From contig NZ_VANR01000004.1 of assembly GCF_005885675.1 (NCBI RefSeq), forward strand, positions 248,001 to 312,000: DNA of 64,000 bases, read 5' to 3'. Below are positions 4,248-35,760 of the stretch, piece by piece. The DNA is from Polaribacter aestuariivivens. Its GTDB lineage: Bacteria > Bacteroidota > Bacteroidia > Flavobacteriales > Flavobacteriaceae. The translations under genes and the position numbers were made by a program. Position 1 is the stretch's first letter. Every line of letters starts with the position of its first letter. The notes under the pieces were generated by a model. That model was not told the origin of the DNA. It made no database searches and saw only the letters and a program-made list of their open reading frames with translations.

Positions 4248-5714
4248 ATGTCTCATTACGAAGCACCCATAAGGGAACCTTTAGTATTAGGTGATAAAAG
4301 TTACCATGATATTACCGAAGACATTGCAAAACCTATAGAAGGTAAAGCAAACAAGAACTGGTATATAGCATTTTATATTTCTTTAGCAGCAATGCTTTGG
4401 GGATTTGGATGTATTTTCTATACAGTTGGAACAGGTATTGGAGTTTGGGGATTGAACAAGAACATTGGTTGGGCTTGGGATATTACCAATTTTGTATGGT
4501 GGGTAGGTATTGGTCACGCAGGAACATTAATTTCTGCAGTACTTTTATTATTCCGTCAAAAATGGAGAATGGCTATAAACCGTTCTGCAGAAGCAATGAC
4601 AATATTTGCCGTTTTTCAGGCAGGATTGTTTCCAATTATTCACATGGGACGTCCATGGAATGGCTATTGGGTAATGCCAATTCCAAACCAATTTGGATCT
4701 CTTTGGGTAAACTTTAACTCGCCACTATTATGGGATGTATTTGCAATCTCAACCTATTTATCTGTATCATTAGTTTTCTGGTGGACAGGTTTATTGCCAG
4801 ATTTTGCTATGATTCGTGATAGAGCCGTAAAACCTTTCCAAAAGAAAATTTATGCATTATTAAGTTTTGGTTGGTCTGGTAGAGCAAAAGATTGGCAGCG
4901 TTTTGAAGAAGTTTCATTAGTTCTTGCAGGTTTAGCAACACCATTAGTACTTTCTGTACACACAATTGTATCTATGGACTTTGCTACATCTATTAACCCA
5001 GGATGGCACTCAACAATTTTCCCACCTTATTTCGTAGCTGGAGCAATATTTTCAGGATTTGCAATGGTACAGACTTTATTAGGTATTATGAGAAAGGTTA
5101 CGAATATGGAAGACTATATTACACGTTTACACGTAGAATATATGAATATTGTAATCATTTTAACTGGTGGAATTGTAGCAGTAGCTTACGCAACAGAATT
5201 TTTTATAGCCTGGTATACAGGATCTCCTTACGAAAACTACACATACCTATCAGTAGGTGCAGCAACAGGACCTTATGCATGGGCATTTTACTCACTTTTA
5301 TTCTTTAACATATTAACACCACAATTGTTATGGTTTAAGAAAATTAGAAGAAGTTTTATATGGTCATTCATTATTTCAATATTTATTAATATTGGTATGT
5401 GGTTTGAGCGTTTTGATATTATTGCAATCGTACTAAGTAAAGGTCACTTACCGTCAACTTGGTGGCGTTTTGAACCAACATTTGTAGATGTAGGTATTTT
5501 TATTGGAACAATTGGGTTCTTCTTTGTATTATTCTTATTATATGCAAGAACATTCCCAGTAATTGCACAAGCTGAGGTAAAAACAATCTTAAAATCTTCT
5601 GGTGAATTTTACAAGAAGAGATTAGCACAAGGTATTCCAACGAAACCAACTGTTGTTATTGCAAAAAAGAAAATAACTGAAGTTGATTCTTCAGATAAAA
5701 ATACAAAAGAATAA
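4248..5714 (+). CDS. actC: Alternative complex III NrfD/PsrC-like membrane subunit ActC
   Basis: 488 residues, mostly hydrophobic, with about ten predicted membrane helices and the NrfD/PsrC family look (GIGHAGTLISAVLLLFRQKWR near residue 90, HMGRPWNGYW near 130). ActC is one of two homologous integral subunits of ACIII and is thought to form the quinol-binding pocket next to the Fe-S protein ActB. The C-terminal ~35 residues are basic and cytoplasmic. actD follows after 2 bases, so translation is probably coupled. A 106-codon ORF inside this gene in another frame is a shadow. Confidence 0.94.
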   Translation: MSHYEAPIREPLVLGDKSYHDITEDIAKPIEGKANKNWYIAFYISLAAMLWGFGCIFYTVGTGIGVWGLNKNIGWAWDITNFVWWVGIGHAGTLISAVLLLFRQKWRMAINRSAEAMTIFAVFQAGLFPIIHMGRPWNGYWVMPIPNQFGSLWVNFNSPLLWDVFAISTYLSVSLVFWWTGLLPDFAMIRDRAVKPFQKKIYALLSFGWSGRAKDWQRFEEVSLVLAGLATPLVLSVHTIVSMDFATSINPGWHSTIFPPYFVAGAIFSGFAMVQTLLGIMRKVTNMEDYITRLHVEYMNIVIILTGGIVAVAYATEFFIAWYTGSPYENYTYLSVGAATGPYAWAFYSLLFFNILTPQLLWFKKIRRSFIWSFIISIFINIGMWFERFDIIAIVLSKGHLPSTWWRFEPTFVDVGIFIGTIGFFFVLFLLYARTFPVIAQAEVKTILKSSGEFYKKRLAQGIPTKPTVVIAKKKITEVDSSDKNTKE

Positions 5715-5716
5715 TT

Positions 5717-6244
5717 ATGGAAGCATCAAAAGTTATTCACGCATTTTATACAGATGATGAAGTATTGCTAGACGCAGTGAAAGCTGTAAAAGCAAAACAC
5801 CATCATATAGAAGAAGTTTTTTGTCCATTTCCTGTTCACGGTTTAGACAAAGCAATGGGGTTAGCACCAACAAGATTGGCAATTACTTCATTCATGTACG
5901 GTATTACAGGTTTGTCTATCGCTATTTGGATGACAAATTATATTATGATTCAAGATTGGCCACAAGATATTGGTGGTAAACCAAGTTTTTCTTGGTTTGA
6001 AAACATGCCAGCATTTGTGCCAATTATGTTTGAATTAACAGTCTTTTTTGCAGCCCATTTAATGGTAATCACCTTTTATATGAGAAGTAGAATTTGGCCT
6101 TTTAAAGAAGCTGAAAATCCAGACCCAAGAACTACAGATGATCATTTTTTAATGGAAATTCCAGTTCATAATAATGAAGAAGAATTAACTGAATTATTAA
6201 CAAATACAGGAGCTGTAGAAATAAATATAGTAGACAAGCATTAA
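5717..6244 (+). CDS. actD: Alternative complex III subunit ActD (DUF3341)
   Basis: 175 residues with a soluble N-terminal domain (~1-55, with HHHIEEVFCPFPVHGLD, the DUF3341 signature) and two membrane helices (~58-78 and ~98-120) separated by a short loop. ActD is a small structural membrane subunit of ACIII without cofactors. It lies 2 bp after actC and 10 bp before actE. Family assignment is firm from sequence and position. Confidence 0.92.
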   Translation: MEASKVIHAFYTDDEVLLDAVKAVKAKHHHIEEVFCPFPVHGLDKAMGLAPTRLAITSFMYGITGLSIAIWMTNYIMIQDWPQDIGGKPSFSWFENMPAFVPIMFELTVFFAAHLMVITFYMRSRIWPFKEAENPDPRTTDDHFLMEIPVHNNEEELTELLTNTGAVEINIVDKH

Positions 6245-6254
6245 TATATAGATA

Positions 6255-22372: not shown

Positions 22373-24718
22373 TTAAAATTTTAAAGTAACACCAACTAAG
22401 AAATTTCTTGTGGCTTGTGGGTAATATCCTGCGCCATCACCAGTAATTGTATTTCCATTACCATCATCAAAATTAAAAGTATAATAATAACCTCTATCCA
22501 CATATTCTGCATCAAAAATATTATTTACCAAAGCTGTGAATGTTACAGATTTAAAAATTTTAGTTGGTTTAATTTCATAAACTACGTTTAAATCAGATGT
22601 AAAAAAACCATCTAACACATCATTATCTGAAATTGCGCTGCTAAAATTACTCATAAATTGTTTACCAACGTATTTAGATAAGAATGAGAATTGTAGATTT
22701 TCTAAAGGCATGTATGTGAAAACATTTCCAATAACGATATCTGGAGAAAAAGAAATAGCAGTTTCTCCTAATGATTCTGGAGTTTGGTTTCCATTTCTGG
22801 TAATAAAAAAGTTTCTATTTTTATTAGAACTAAAAGCGGCATTTGGTTTTATTGTAAATTGGTCACTTAAACGAATATCAGCATCAATTTCTAAGCCTAA
22901 CCTATAACTGCTACCAGAAGTAGCTCTTACAGGAGCACCTACATCATCAATTGCACCTGTTAAAACAAGCTGGTTTTTATAATCCATGTAGTAAATATTG
23001 GTGTTTAATTTTACGTTTTCTTTTTTCAAACGCCAACCAAATTCAAAATCATTTAATGTTTCTGGTGTAGAAACTCCGTTTTCAAAATCATTTCTATTTG
23101 GCTCTCTATTAGCAGCTGCAAATGAAGTGTATAAATTATTTTGACTATTTATTTTATAAGTAAAACCAAATTTTGGATTAAAGAAATTAAAATTAGCATC
23201 TACATCAATAGGTACAATATCATTTGTAATTCCTTCGGTTTTATAACCTACAAATCTACCTTGTAAATCTGCATACATTGCTAATTTCTCAGAAAGATTA
23301 AATGTAGCTTTTGCGAATAATGAAAAATCATTTTTAGTTGCATCAGAAAAGTAATAACGATCTCTAATATTTGTATTTGGAGCCAAATCTGATCCCCAGA
23401 TGACTTCCCCAAAATGATCTCCAGTATAATTAGAGTAAGAAATTCCGGTAATTAAATTTATTTTATCGGTTTTGTAGTTTGTATTGAAGTTGAAAACGTA
23501 AAAATGGTTATCTAGCCAACGTCTTACAATTACGTCACTTCCATCAACAATTAAATTATTAAAATCGGCAGCATCTTCTCCGTCTTTAAATTGCTCAAAA
23601 TATCCAGCTCCTTTCGTATAATTTAATGCTACATTTGTAGACCAGTTGTTATTCAATTTTTCATTCCAATGTAGTTGGTAGTGATTTTGATTGTAATTAT
23701 CAACTTGATTGTCATATGTATAAGGGTTTTGTCTTCTGTTTTCTTTTAACTGAGTTTCAGTTAAACCTTCCCAAGATTGGTATGTTCTTTCTTTTCCACC
23801 AAAAGTAATGGCTTTAATTAACGTGTTTTCGTCAGTATAACTTCCTTGTAAATAGTATGATTTTAAATCGGCAAATGCTCTATCTACATAACCATCTGAG
23901 TAAATGTTAGACAAACGTCCAGCAATTTCTATGTTATTATTTAACTTTCCTGTACCAAATTTTACGGTATGTTTTCTGGTGTTAAAAGACCCAAAAGAAT
24001 TAGAAATTTCACCAAAGGCGTCTTCTGAAATTGCATCTGTTAATATGTTTAAACTTGCACCAAAAGCACCAGAACCGTTTGTTGATGTTCCAACTCCACG
24101 TTGCAATTGTAGGTTTTGAGTAGAAGAGGCAAAATCACCTAAATTTACCCAAAAAGTACCATGACTTTCTGCATCGTTATACGGAATTCCGTTTACGGTA
24201 ACATTAATTCGCTCGCCATTAGAACCACGAACACTCATGTAAGTATAACCTACTCCAGCACCAGCATCGCTTGAGGAAACTACGTTTGGTAAATAATTCA
24301 TTAAAATAGGAATGTCTTGTCCTAAATTTCGCTTTGCAATTTCTTTTTTAGATAAGTTAGAAAACGTTACAGGAATATCTGCATTAACACGAATAGCAGA
24401 AACTAAAATTTCGTCTAAAACAGCATATTCAGCTTTTAATTGAATAAGGTAGTTTTCATCTTTAGAAAGCGTAATTTTTTCTGAAATGGTTTTGTAACCT
24501 AAAAATGAAACTTCTACTGTGTACGTTCCTTTGCTAAGTTTAAATGCAAAATTTCCAGATACATCTGTAGAAGTACCTTTTTTAATTTCCTTTACAAATA
24601 CAGATGCTTCTGGTAAAGGTTTTTTGTTTTCATCTACAACTTTTCCAGAAAGTGTAAATGATTGGGCGTTTGCAAGTATACTTGCAAACAAGAATAAAAA
24701 AATAGATATTTTTTTCAT
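22373..24718 (-). CDS. TonB-dependent outer membrane receptor, TPP-riboswitch controlled (probable thiamine receptor)
   Basis: 781 residues: signal peptide to ~18 (ASILANAQ), a carboxypeptidase-like regulatory domain (~20-105: GKVVDENKKPLPEASVFV, GTYTVEVSFLGYK), a plug (~115-225: VSSSDAGAGVGYTYMSVRGSNGERINVTVNGIPYND) and a 22-strand-type barrel ending in TRNFLVGVTLKF. Such receptors take up scarce ligands across the outer membrane with TonB energy. The 5' leader holds a TPP riboswitch, so the ligand is most likely thiamine, its phosphates or a precursor. Family assignment is firm; ligand is inference from the riboswitch. Confidence 0.9.
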   Translation of the reverse strand: MKKISIFLFLFASILANAQSFTLSGKVVDENKKPLPEASVFVKEIKKGTSTDVSGNFAFKLSKGTYTVEVSFLGYKTISEKITLSKDENYLIQLKAEYAVLDEILVSAIRVNADIPVTFSNLSKKEIAKRNLGQDIPILMNYLPNVVSSSDAGAGVGYTYMSVRGSNGERINVTVNGIPYNDAESHGTFWVNLGDFASSTQNLQLQRGVGTSTNGSGAFGASLNILTDAISEDAFGEISNSFGSFNTRKHTVKFGTGKLNNNIEIAGRLSNIYSDGYVDRAFADLKSYYLQGSYTDENTLIKAITFGGKERTYQSWEGLTETQLKENRRQNPYTYDNQVDNYNQNHYQLHWNEKLNNNWSTNVALNYTKGAGYFEQFKDGEDAADFNNLIVDGSDVIVRRWLDNHFYVFNFNTNYKTDKINLITGISYSNYTGDHFGEVIWGSDLAPNTNIRDRYYFSDATKNDFSLFAKATFNLSEKLAMYADLQGRFVGYKTEGITNDIVPIDVDANFNFFNPKFGFTYKINSQNNLYTSFAAANREPNRNDFENGVSTPETLNDFEFGWRLKKENVKLNTNIYYMDYKNQLVLTGAIDDVGAPVRATSGSSYRLGLEIDADIRLSDQFTIKPNAAFSSNKNRNFFITRNGNQTPESLGETAISFSPDIVIGNVFTYMPLENLQFSFLSKYVGKQFMSNFSSAISDNDVLDGFFTSDLNVVYEIKPTKIFKSVTFTALVNNIFDAEYVDRGYYYTFNFDDGNGNTITGDGAGYYPQATRNFLVGVTLKF

Positions 24719-24818
24719 TTTAAAAAATTTAAAACGAATAAAAAGAGGTAATTATTCTTGCGATTAATATTGAATAATTTGTTAAAAACTTATAAATTAT
24801 TAGTCTTAAAATGTCTCC

Positions 24819-24863
24819 TCGAGCGCAGTCGAGAGGTTTTAAATAGTTCTCGACTGCGCTCGA
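24819..24863. repeat. Perfect 16-bp palindromic hairpin in the riboswitch leader
   Basis: Arms TCGAGCGCAGTCGAGA (24819-24834) and its exact complement (24848-24863), loop 13 nt. Each arm is a copy of the dispersed GAGCGCAGTCGA repeat, placed head to head. It lies between the TPP aptamer and the receptor start codon; there is no T-run, so it is not a simple terminator. Confidence 0.85.
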
Positions 24864-24894
24864 ACCGACAACTAAATAGTTTAGTTAAGTTCGA

Positions 24895-25030
24895 AATCCC
24901 TAAACAGCATTACCTGTTCTAGGTTCATTGGGTATGATCTCAGCCTCCATAAGTTCAAAGTTTCAAATTTAAAGTTCAAAATTATTGTGAACTGAAAACT
25001 GTTACTGCCAACTTATTTTAGCACCCCTTT
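24895..25030 (-). promoter_or_regulatory. TPP (thiamine pyrophosphate) riboswitch
   Basis: Read on the minus strand, all conserved pieces occur in order: GGGGTGC (25021-25027), a long variable P3 arm, GGCTGAGATCATACCC (CTGAGA at 24938-24943, ATACCC at 24930-24935), GAACCT (24921-24926), GGTAATGC and TTTAGGGA at the end. This is the THI-box aptamer. It precedes the TonB receptor start by ~175 nt. The rest of the 24719-25205 gap holds the hairpin at 24819 and an AT-rich repeat at ~25085-25185. Confidence 0.95.
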
Positions 25031-25042
25031 ATGAGAACACTG

Positions 25043-25050
25043 CAAAATTA
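25043..25050 (-). promoter_or_regulatory. Candidate -7 element (TAATTTTG) upstream of the TPP riboswitch
   Basis: Exact TAnnTTTG match on the minus strand, 13 bases before the aptamer begins, so the transcript would start directly with the riboswitch. Confidence 0.65.
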
Positions 25051-25084
25051 AGTTGGAAAAATTTAATGTGAAACTAAAAAGTGA

Positions 25085-25185
25085 TTTATTTTTTAGAAGC
25101 TATTTCCTGCTTTCACTACTCGCTTTTTTATCTTTTAAAAAAAAGATAAAAAGAGCTCAAACAAACCGTTCAATCAGGGCTAAGT
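25085..25185. repeat. REP-like intergenic repeat with AT hairpin
   Basis: Contains a perfect 12-bp hairpin (TTTTTATCTTTT, loop AAAA, complement; 25125-25152) followed by a GC-richer tail with CGTTCAATCAGGGCTA. I recall intergenic elements of flavobacteria with a comparable build (CGCT, hairpin, then AATCAGGGCTA); this is recognition from memory, not a search. No U-tract follows the hairpin on either strand. Confidence 0.45.
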
Positions 25186-25205
25186 TAACTTAGGTGTTTT
25201 TTGCT

Positions 25206-25610
25206 TTAATCAAATTTAGGTTTTTTTCTAAGTGCTTTTTTTAAAGATGTTTTTTTCTTAGTTTCAATTCTTTTTTTAATAGCAGCTTTACTTGGTTTTG
25301 TTTTTCTTCTTTTTTTAGGTCGAATTAAATTCGTTTTTATAATATCAATAAACTTTTTAATAGCTAAATCTTTATTTCTATGTTGTGAACGAGTTTCTTC
25401 ACAAAAAAGAATTAACAAATTATCGTTAGTTAACTTCGAAGAAAGTTTTGTTTTTAGTAATGCTTTTTCACTATCAGAAAGTGATTCAGAATTTTCTAAG
25501 TCGAAAGTCAATTCAATTTTAGACGACGTTTTATTTACATGTTGTCCACCAGCACCAGAACTTCTAATAGCCTTGAAATTTAATTCTTTTACAATGTTTT
25601 CAGTATTCAT
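25206..25610 (-). CDS. arfB: ArfB-like peptidyl-tRNA hydrolase (ribosome rescue)
   Basis: 134 residues; a class I release-factor catalytic domain without codon-recognition domains. The motif SSGAGGQHVNKT (~residues 17-28) carries the GGQ loop that enters the peptidyl transferase centre. The basic C-terminal tail (~95-134, KKRRKTKPSKAAIKKRIETKKK) is the ribosome-entry tail of ArfB/YaeJ. It frees ribosomes stalled on non-stop mRNA. It is 32 bp downstream of the NadR-like ATPase gene in the same direction. Confidence 0.92.
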   Translation of the reverse strand: MNTENIVKELNFKAIRSSGAGGQHVNKTSSKIELTFDLENSESLSDSEKALLKTKLSSKLTNDNLLILFCEETRSQHRNKDLAIKKFIDIIKTNLIRPKKRRKTKPSKAAIKKRIETKKKTSLKKALRKKPKFD

Positions 25611-25642
25611 TTTTCTTAGAAGTTGTTCGTTTGAGTGTAGAC

Positions 25643-26302
25643 TTAATACTCAAAATTTGTGCTAAAATCTCCAGAATTTTGATGTAAAAAGTGCATATCT
25701 AAATCTTGTAAAGAATCAGAAAATGAGTATAAATCTTTTTTCTCTAACAATATTTTATCAATGGCTTTTGTGGCAGTTTTTAAACGTGTTTCTTTGTCTC
25801 CTTTTAGTAAAATATAGTTTTTGTTGTGTTTTTTTAAAGCATTTTCAAAAGCATTAAACATTTCCAAACGTTCGTCTGGTCTGTCTCGTAAATCATCTTC
25901 TTCCCAAGGTGTATCAATATAAGTTAACAAATACAAATCATATTCGTTTTTATTTGCAGCTTCATTTAACTTATCATCTACAAAACCTCCATAAAATTCT
26001 TCTGAATATACTTTTGTTTCTAACAAATCTGTATCACAAATTAATATTTTATCGGCTTTTTTAGCTAATGAATTTTCTAACTCCATTTGTCCAGTTGCAA
26101 TAGGCAACAAATCTTCTTTTTCGCAAGTTTTACGTTCATTATTCCATTTGTTTTGCAAGTATTCACGTGCAAATTCTGGAGCCCAAACTGTGTTATAATG
26201 TCTTGCCAAGTGACGTGAAAGTGTTGTTTTTCCAGAAGATTCTGGACCAAATAAAACAACTTTTATCAAGTTGATTGGGTGTTGAGTAAGTTTTTTTTCC
26301 AT
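25643..26302 (-). CDS. NadR-kinase-like P-loop ATPase
   Basis: 219 residues. Walker A GPESSGKTT is at ~18-26, followed by WAPEFAREYLQ as in the ribosylnicotinamide kinase domain of NadR, ICDTDLLETKVYSEEFYG (Walker B region) and a lid segment DLRDRPDERLEMF. There is no NMN adenylyltransferase or DNA-binding domain, so this is the kinase alone. It overlaps the PnuC-type carrier gene by 37 bases. Likely role: phosphorylating the nucleoside or vitamin that the carrier imports, and so trapping it. Nicotinamide riboside is the default substrate; thiamine is possible given the nearby riboswitch. Confidence 0.82.
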   Translation of the reverse strand: MEKKLTQHPINLIKVVLFGPESSGKTTLSRHLARHYNTVWAPEFAREYLQNKWNNERKTCEKEDLLPIATGQMELENSLAKKADKILICDTDLLETKVYSEEFYGGFVDDKLNEAANKNEYDLYLLTYIDTPWEEDDLRDRPDERLEMFNAFENALKKHNKNYILLKGDKETRLKTATKAIDKILLEKKDLYSFSDSLQDLDMHFLHQNSGDFSTNFEY

Positions 26303-26895
26303 GCTAAATAACCAAAAATGGCAATAAAAGTAAATCCAAAATATTGCAGACTAGTAAATGTAAAACCTTTGTAAAAGTATAAAGGTACAGAAATGATGTT
26401 TCCAACAATCCAAAATAACCAATTTTCTATTTTTCGTTTTGCCATTAGCCACATACCTACAAAGAAAATTGCAGTCGTAAAAGTATCTACATAAGCAACC
26501 CAACTTGTCCATCTATCAAAATAATTATAAATACTATAAACAAAAATTAAGGTGGCAATAAATATAAATACAGCCATTTTTTTTTCTTGTAAATTAATTT
26601 TAGAAATTGGTGTAACATGTGTTTCGTCAACTTTACGAGTCCAAATATACCAACCATAAACACTCATTATAAAGTAGTAAGCATTTATCATCATATCTCC
26701 TAAAAGTTCCCATTTTAATAAAAGATACACAAAAATAATGGTGCTAACCATTCCAGTTGGAAATACCCAAATTTTGTTTTGCTTCGAAAACCAAACTGAC
26801 AAAAAACCAAAAAATACGGCAATAATTTCAAGAACAATATCTATGGTTGCGTATTCTTTGTATTGAGAAAAAAAGAAATCGAAAATTGTTGACAT
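26266..26895 (-). CDS. PnuC/PnuT-type vitamin precursor transporter
   Basis: 209 residues with about seven membrane helices; PnuC family by GFLSVWFSKQNKIWVFPTGMVSTIIFVYLLLKWELLGDMMINAYYFIMSVYGWYIW (spread over ~35-90) and WMLWFWIVGN-like ENWLFWIVGNIISVPLYFYKGF near the C-terminus. PnuC proteins diffuse nicotinamide riboside, and the PnuT subgroup thiamine, with trapping by a kinase. The kinase gene overlaps its 3' end. It starts 5 bp after the PcrB-like gene. Sequence alone does not separate PnuC from PnuT. Confidence 0.85.
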   Translation of the reverse strand: MSTIFDFFFSQYKEYATIDIVLEIIAVFFGFLSVWFSKQNKIWVFPTGMVSTIIFVYLLLKWELLGDMMINAYYFIMSVYGWYIWTRKVDETHVTPISKINLQEKKMAVFIFIATLIFVYSIYNYFDRWTSWVAYVDTFTTAIFFVGMWLMAKRKIENWLFWIVGNIISVPLYFYKGFTFTSLQYFGFTFIAIFGYLAWKKNLLNTQST

Positions 26896-26900
26896 TGAAT

Positions 26901-27623
26901 TTATTTTTTTAATTGATTAAAGAAACTTTCATCATTTTCAAAAGCTGTACCAATAACTACCAAATCTGCTCCAGCATTAAAAGCTGCATCTAATTGTTTT
27001 TTAGAACGGATTCCTCCACCAACAATTAATGGAATTTTTAAATTATCATTTACCAGTGAAATAATAGTTGCATTCACAGGTACTTTAGCACCACTTCCAG
27101 CTTCTAAATAAATTGCTTTTTTTCCAGAAAATTCACCAGCCAAAGCTGTGTTTTTTATAAGTTCTATATCTGATTGTGAAATTGGTTTTGTGTTGCTTAC
27201 CTTTTGAGTAGCCGTTTCTTTTTGGCCATCAATTAAAATATAACCAGTTGGAATAATTTCCAATTTAGTTTTTTGCAAAAGCGGAACTGCTTTTACTTGT
27301 TGCTCAATTAAATATTCAGGATTTCTTCCAGAAAGTAAACTTAAAAATAGAATTCCGTCTGCTTTATTGGTGATTTGAGAAACATCTCCAGGAAATAAAA
27401 TTACAGGTAATTTTGTTGCTTTTTTTATTTCAGAAACAACAGCTTCGGTTTTGTTATTTACATCCGTACTTCCACCCACAAAAATATGAGTTGCCATAGA
27501 TTGATGCACTTTTTCGAAAAAAGATGAAATGTTTTGCAGTTCAATTTTTTCAGGATCAATTAAAACAGCCAATAACTTTTTGCCTTCTTTTTTTGCTTGT
27601 AAAATGTTTTGGTAAAAATTCAC
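26901..27623 (-). CDS. Geranylgeranylglyceryl/heptaprenylglyceryl phosphate synthase (PcrB family)
   Basis: 240 residues, TIM-barrel prenyltransferase. Typical blocks: KLLAVLIDPEKI, THIFVGGSTDV, LPVILFPGDVSQI, DGILFLSLLSGRNPEYLI, GKKAIYLEAGSGA, and the phosphate-binding end IPLIVGGGIRSKKQLDAAFNAGADLVVIGTAFE. It couples a polyprenyl diphosphate to glycerol-1-phosphate. Bacteroidetes carry GGGPS-type homologues whose physiological lipid is poorly known. Its start lies ~100 bp from the phosphopantetheinyl transferase gene. Confidence 0.9.
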   Translation of the reverse strand: MNFYQNILQAKKEGKKLLAVLIDPEKIELQNISSFFEKVHQSMATHIFVGGSTDVNNKTEAVVSEIKKATKLPVILFPGDVSQITNKADGILFLSLLSGRNPEYLIEQQVKAVPLLQKTKLEIIPTGYILIDGQKETATQKVSNTKPISQSDIELIKNTALAGEFSGKKAIYLEAGSGAKVPVNATIISLVNDNLKIPLIVGGGIRSKKQLDAAFNAGADLVVIGTAFENDESFFNQLKK

Positions 27624-29747: not shown

Positions 29748-29767
29748 CCTTGAGCGCAGTCGAAAGG
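29748..29767 (+). repeat. Dispersed repeat CCTTGAGCGCAGTCGAAAGG
   Basis: Copy of the same motif as at 20306 and 24819; a degenerate second copy (CTTGAACAAAGTCGAAAAGG) follows at 29856-29875 on the other side of the ahcY terminator. Both are duplicated in the right direct repeat. Confidence 0.75.
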
Positions 29768-35595: not shown

Positions 35596-35760
35596 TAAAG
35601 CGTTATTCTGAAAATGTCACCTTGAGCGCAGTCGAAAGGTTGTTTCAGAATCTCATAAAACTCAAAAATCCTTACATTAATTTGTAGGGATTTTTTTATT
35701 TGGGCGTTTTAACAGGCTAAGAATTTATCTTGAGCGAAGACGAAAGGCTATATCTTTTTT
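35311..35760. repeat. Right ~450-bp direct repeat (3' end of ahcY plus flank)
   Basis: Second copy of 29439-29887. It includes the ahcY terminator copy (35664-35697, one stem pair changed to G-U) and two copies of the dispersed repeat (35620-35639 and 35729-35747). Beyond 35760 the 35596-35901 gap holds only A/T-rich sequence and the probable promoter region of the SLC13-family gene. Confidence 0.95.

Follow-up and report, generated by a model that had tools for sequence, protein, structure and literature searches.

We describe a locus in Polaribacter aestuariivivens, a member of the Flavobacteriaceae, that quite probably encodes a salvage route for thiamine (vitamin B1) that couples uptake of the vitamin to its phosphorylation by a NadR-fold kinase. 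The locus lies in a stretch of 64,000 nucleotides (contig NZ_VANR01000004.1, positions 248,001 to 312,000), hereafter the window, and its minus-strand order of transcription is pcrB, pnuC, KIN, arfB, a thiamine pyrophosphate (TPP) aptamer, and a TonB receptor gene—KIN is the name used here for the stand-alone NadR-kinase-like ATPase gene. On balance, it seems likely that KIN represents a further non-orthologous thiamine kinase family, built on the NadR nicotinamide riboside (NR) kinase fold and standard in Flavobacteriaceae and related lineages, and that the receptor switch works without a P1 helix.

From gene content, gene order, the aptamer, the fold, and phyletic patterns, all directly observed, we infer the substrates of receptor, carrier, and kinase, the thiamine monophosphate (TMP) product, and operon expression. 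In the proposed mechanism, the TonB receptor would carry thiamine across the outer membrane in a step under TPP control, and the PnuC-family protein would pass it through the inner membrane. KIN would then phosphorylate thiamine to TMP, trapping the vitamin in the cell, and ThiL, encoded elsewhere, would make TPP; pnuC and KIN would share with pcrB and arfB an operon that TPP does not directly control. An initial annotation of the window, made from the sequence, had spoken of a possibly complete route: receptor, carrier, and kinase are indeed found at the locus, but ThiL or a thiamine pyrophosphokinase (TPK)-like gene is also needed, and both are encoded elsewhere.

Most sampled genera of the family lack ThiC and so rely on outside thiamine or its precursors. 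The enzyme that would phosphorylate the imported thiamine is missing from annotation—protein-family models assign NR transport to the carrier and a NadR-like identity to the kinase. If the reading given here is true, metabolic models of these bacteria will acquire a defined route for B1 salvage and shed a false one for NAD, and genomes will become a more reliable guide to vitamin B1 dependence.

Thiamine Genes across the Flavobacteriaceae

The survey covered 120 Flavobacteriaceae genomes, with close to one genome for each genus. Of these, 119 have PnuC and 115 have KIN, and ThiL scores over its cut-off in 119; by comparison, ThiC was found in 23, ThiE in 37 (counting strong matches only, better than 1e-20), and TPK in 9, while ThiK scored over its model's cut-off in none of the 120. 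ThiL turns TMP into TPP and therefore needs a supply of TMP. Since ThiL is near-universal and 79 of the 120 genomes lack ThiE, ThiC, and TPK, with no ThiK either, KIN is the sole candidate TMP source in those 79. The window's own genome has ThiL and one TPK-like gene, and neither ThiC nor ThiE was found in it; most likely, this bacterium cannot make its own thiamine and imports and traps it.

Of the five family genomes without KIN, four (G002, G014, G085, and G105) have TPK. In G085, whose carrier is plainly orthologous to that of the window, TPK is present and KIN no longer stands between the carrier gene and DUF4301; G014 has an operon in the order TPP switch, receptor, carrier, TPK. The fifth genome, G018, has no TPK and no PnuC, has ThiC and a ThiE match, and carries its only TPP match ahead of thiC, the receptor-type switch being lost; G018 thus makes thiamine and has lost carrier, KIN, and receptor switch together. 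Outside the family but within the same class, TPK is present in 10 of 10 sampled KIN-less genomes versus 1 of 33 with a KIN match, and this single match belongs to a full-length NadR. In genus g112, all three KIN-less genomes have TPK. This genome comparison, and the complementarity of KIN and TPK in particular, supports the initial annotation's suggestion that the ATPase is a thiamine kinase of an unusual NadR-fold family; KIN is most likely a thiamine kinase, predicted to convert thiamine to TMP.

The TPK-like gene of the window's genome (L106:5517-6140) belongs to a family, also seen in L107-L112, in which E replaces the R of the usual R-x-DH motif (e.g., KEQDH). This R-to-E family occurs both with and without KIN.

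Conserved Gene Order and TPP Linkage

Almost all sampled genera of the family have this set of genes. In the loci fetched, the commonest order is ahcY, PPTase, pcrB, pnuC, KIN, usually DUF4301 (a gene of about 1.5 kb), arfB, TPP aptamer, and receptor. An aptamer of the window's type lies on the same strand, no more than 10 kb downstream of KIN, in 103 of the 115 KIN genomes of the family, and in 72 of those 103 the distance is no more than 3 kb; it is therefore standard for pnuC and KIN to precede the switch. This answers the puzzle, raised in the initial annotation, of why neither gene lies downstream of the riboswitch. The receptor gene stands directly under the aptamer, which also precedes the receptor orthologues in conserved loci, and its product is a predicted thiamine receptor. 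Only this gene would be under direct TPP control, with pnuC and KIN outside it.

The neighbourhood could instead be an old housekeeping block (ahcY, PPTase, pcrB, pnuC, KIN, DUF4301, and arfB) whose linkage to the receptor is uninformative on function. The conserved order of the entire block fits such a view, as do arfB and DUF4301, which have no obvious thiamine link; we nevertheless hold it to be very improbable. In three small genomes (G003, G047, and G058) only 10-29 nt separate KIN from the aptamer, arfB and DUF4301 no longer lying between them; in other families, too, KIN adjoins Rfam-confirmed TPP-receptor units (L135, L136, L144, and L156); and the displacement by TPK is independent of synteny. 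Further TPP switches near stand-alone KINs, picked up by a loose text pattern in L149, L167, and L168, were dropped when Rfam did not confirm them.

The Carrier and Its Phylogeny

The carrier is the only Pnu gene in the window's genome and meets the PnuC equivalog TIGR01528 (97.5 versus a cut-off of 42.45 bits). In the carrier tree it falls in a clade of 38 rows (support 97/91) that brings together KIN-linked, TPK-linked, and TPP-controlled carriers—relatives linked to a thiamine-phosphorylating enzyme or to a TPP switch are included—and every NadR-linked carrier falls outside this clade. The TPK-linked members come from family f23, and two carriers of the clade (L117 and L120) lie directly behind Rfam-confirmed TPP switches. 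Most likely, the window's gene encodes a thiamine carrier, with a predicted PnuT function. The tree is less clear elsewhere: a second group of KIN-linked carriers (families f3, f5, and f9) is placed with those linked to NadR, at a weakly supported node (90/62), and the tree therefore does not fix the substrate for all KIN-linked carriers.

The initial annotation had raised the prospect that carrier and kinase might cluster firmly with NR systems. They do not: the NadR-linked carriers stand outside the carrier clade, and the Flavobacteriaceae KINs form one clade (85/87) apart from the NadR kinase domains.

A comparison of carrier residues, the WxxW motif included, was tried as a discriminator between NR and thiamine carriers and gave no separation. 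In family f23 (L177, L178, L180, L181, L182, and L187) the carrier and TPK genes stand tail to tail, and a text-pattern search found no TPP aptamer within the 11 kb fetched at these loci.

The Kinase

The initial annotation correctly placed a PnuC-type carrier and an overlapping NadR-kinase-like ATPase upstream of the receptor on the same strand: both are borne out by Pfam and NCBIfam matches, and the two genes overlap by 37 nt. NadR combines an NMN (nicotinamide mononucleotide) adenylyltransferase with a ribosylnicotinamide kinase. Against TIGR01526, KIN matches the portion that covers the NadR kinase (2.9e-31; 108.9 versus a cut-off of 341 bits), and no NMN adenylyltransferase domain was found in its 219 aa, which hold AAA_28 only. 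The P-loop kinase features are retained, including the Walker A and DT motifs, W133, D136, and R139. The AlphaFold model (pLDDT 91) finds its best PDB folds in NadR, followed by thymidylate kinases. In the kinase tree, the node uniting the Flavobacteriaceae KINs with other stand-alone KINs has a support of 87/75. A search of the open-access literature for a thiamine kinase resembling NadR found none described, though an earlier mention elsewhere is possible.

Five residues (Y48, G71, Q72, E76, and P142) are conserved among stand-alone KINs and usually different in NadR; they suggest a changed substrate or pocket, although they do not name the ligand. As the sequence does not fix the substrate of KIN, the carrier might import thiamine while KIN acts on something else, such as a thiamine precursor or breakdown product. 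This seems decidedly unlikely to us, however, as KIN is replaced by TPK, whose known substrate is thiamine, and as the 79 genomes described above would be left with no other TMP source found for their ThiL.

KIN is fused to DUF4301 at L085:4894-7074, as shown by Pfam, and also at L122:6269-8389 and in many genomes of genus g112, where the reading frame of KIN repeatedly measures about 730-770 aa. DUF4301 is a 500-aa protein that usually follows KIN; in the window, no DUF4301 gene stands at this position.

Thiamine or Nicotinamide Riboside

Several observations weigh against a thiamine function. NCBIfam, through TIGR01528, names the carrier an NR transporter, and the carrier's WxxW motif is identical to that of NR PnuC. 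Among solved structures, NadR NR kinases are the nearest to KIN, and the support for the KIN clade is moderate. Neither carrier nor kinase lies directly behind the riboswitch. G014 and G105 retain ThiL though they lack both ThiE and KIN, and ThiL retention alone is therefore no proof of a TMP supply. KIN and a TPK-like gene occur together in the window's genome, in G054, G062, and G101, and in most sampled g112 genomes, so the two are not strictly exclusive; and the Fisher tests on their distribution (7e-5 and 6e-9) ignore shared ancestry.

With the PnuC equivalog match over its cut-off, NadR as the nearest solved fold, and catalytic residues common to KIN and NadR, carrier and kinase could form an NR system (PnuC plus NR kinase) that simply adjoins a TPP-controlled thiamine receptor. 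We consider this unlikely, given that KIN and TPK substitute for one another, that carriers linked to TPK and to TPP fall in the same clade as the window's and none linked to NadR does, and that carrier, KIN, and receptor switch are lost together in G018, which makes thiamine. Moreover, genome G001 holds a system of the window's type along with a separate receptor-PnuC-NadR set, with adenylyltransferase and kinase domains, and this second set is the one expected to serve NR.

Set beside known systems, the proposed thiamine route resembles the thiamine uptake operons of Bacteroides, OMthi and PnuT-Tnr3(TPK), which are under TPP riboswitches (PMC5613172). Common to both are a TPP riboswitch before a TonB receptor, a Pnu inner carrier, and an ATP-dependent trapping enzyme; the window differs in that TPK gives way to a stand-alone NadR-fold kinase, with TMP, which requires ThiL, as its presumed product, and in that pnuC and KIN belong to a housekeeping operon that precedes the switch. 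The predicted reaction of KIN, thiamine to TMP and then on to ThiL, is that of E. coli ThiK/YcfN, but KIN belongs to a different protein family. With NadR and PnuC, KIN shares the kinase fold, the catalytic motifs, and a Pnu carrier next door; unlike NadR, it lacks the adenylyltransferase domain, occupies a separate position in the tree, is associated with a TPP switch, and is interchangeable with TPK.

A TPP Aptamer without P1

The TPP aptamer that the initial annotation placed before the receptor is real, its coordinates having been correct to within a few bases: RF00059 matches at 24880-25038 on the minus strand with 33.2 bits (E 1.2e-4, calculated over the searched stretch), and model R1, derived from 34 related loci with the window among them, scores it at 80 bits (E 2.5e-14) as the sole match in this genome. 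The RF00059 score is under the Rfam gathering score of 54.3 bits, which is a curation threshold, and scans of the window and the whole genome at default Rfam thresholds missed the aptamer. The weak score is explained by the 76-nt P3 arm (8-99 nt in relatives) and the missing P1 helix. All core motifs are intact (GGGGUGC, GCUGAGA, ACCC, GAACCU, and AGGGA), and the P4 and P5 pairs, with compensatory changes, persist in all 34 rows.

No P1 helix was found in the receptor-linked aptamers—across 44 family loci, the longest helix was 1.70 versus 1.75 in shuffles—and, because of its absence, the element is classed as a variant of the TPP riboswitch RF00059, with TPP binding predicted. Two other conserved features lie before the aptamer. 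In 43 of 44 related loci, TAnnTTTG, the Bacteroidetes -7 box, ends 12-18 nt ahead of GGGG, and in 41 of 44 the promoter element is followed by a UCUCA box. Given their position before GGGG, transcription of the receptor-linked RNA probably begins at the aptamer. The UCUCA box has its complement in the UGAGA of the ligand-binding CUGAGA, and we propose that the two may pair.

Canonical RF00059 aptamers, such as those before thiC in the same family, share with the window's aptamer the core motifs, P2-P5, and a thiamine-related gene downstream. The window type differs in having no P1, with the UCUCA box and the promoter element directly ahead of the aptamer. By comparison, the thiC-linked aptamers examined in the family (L100 and L101) reach the gathering score, with 74 and 65 bits, and carry a 6-bp complement in the P1 position. 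A TPP aptamer lacking P1 would offer a good way to examine how ligand binding is relayed by the switch.

Other Features of the Locus

The features of the locus are collected in Table 1. The pcrB gene ends 5 bp ahead of pnuC and is likely co-transcribed with pnuC, KIN, and arfB. A conserved neighbour between KIN and the aptamer, arfB was absent from the initial annotation; its function is presumably unrelated to that of the thiamine genes.

Table 1. Genes and elements of the locus, in window coordinates.
Feature	Position	Strand	Match or score
PcrB/GGGP synthase gene	26901-27623	-	NF003198, 288 bits
PnuC-family inner-membrane carrier	26266-26895	-	Pfam NMN_transporter PF04973, 3.5e-53
KIN, stand-alone NadR-kinase-like ATPase, 219 aa	25643-26302	-	AAA_28 PF13521, 1.2e-43
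arfB, ribosome-rescue hydrolase	25206-25610	-	NF006718, 129.7 bits, over cut-off
Flavo-1 RNA-like element	25099-25185	-	RF01705, 38.8 bits, below gathering 42
TAATTTTG, fits Bacteroidetes -7 promoter element TAnnTTTG	25043-25050	-	
UCUCA box at presumed RNA 5' end	25032-25036	-	
TPP aptamer core (GGGGUGC ... AGGGA), no P1 helix	24897-25027	-	RF00059, 33.2 bits; model R1, 80 bits
Enlarged P3 arm, 76 nt	24945-25020	-	
Palindromic hairpin between aptamer and receptor start, arm TCGACTGCGCTCGA	24819-24863	-	
TonB-dependent outer-membrane receptor	22373-24718	-	PF13715, PF07715, PF00593 (plug and barrel domains)

Matches to Flavo-1 RNA also occur at L049:5469-5615 and L117:9504-9581; L049 has a second pnuC-like gene on the minus strand (5595-6245), and the match there overlaps its end. 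The palindromic hairpin ahead of the receptor is probably a dispersed repeat, to judge from two near-copies of its arm, TCGACTGCGCTCGA, at positions 29750-29763 and 35622-35635 of the window.

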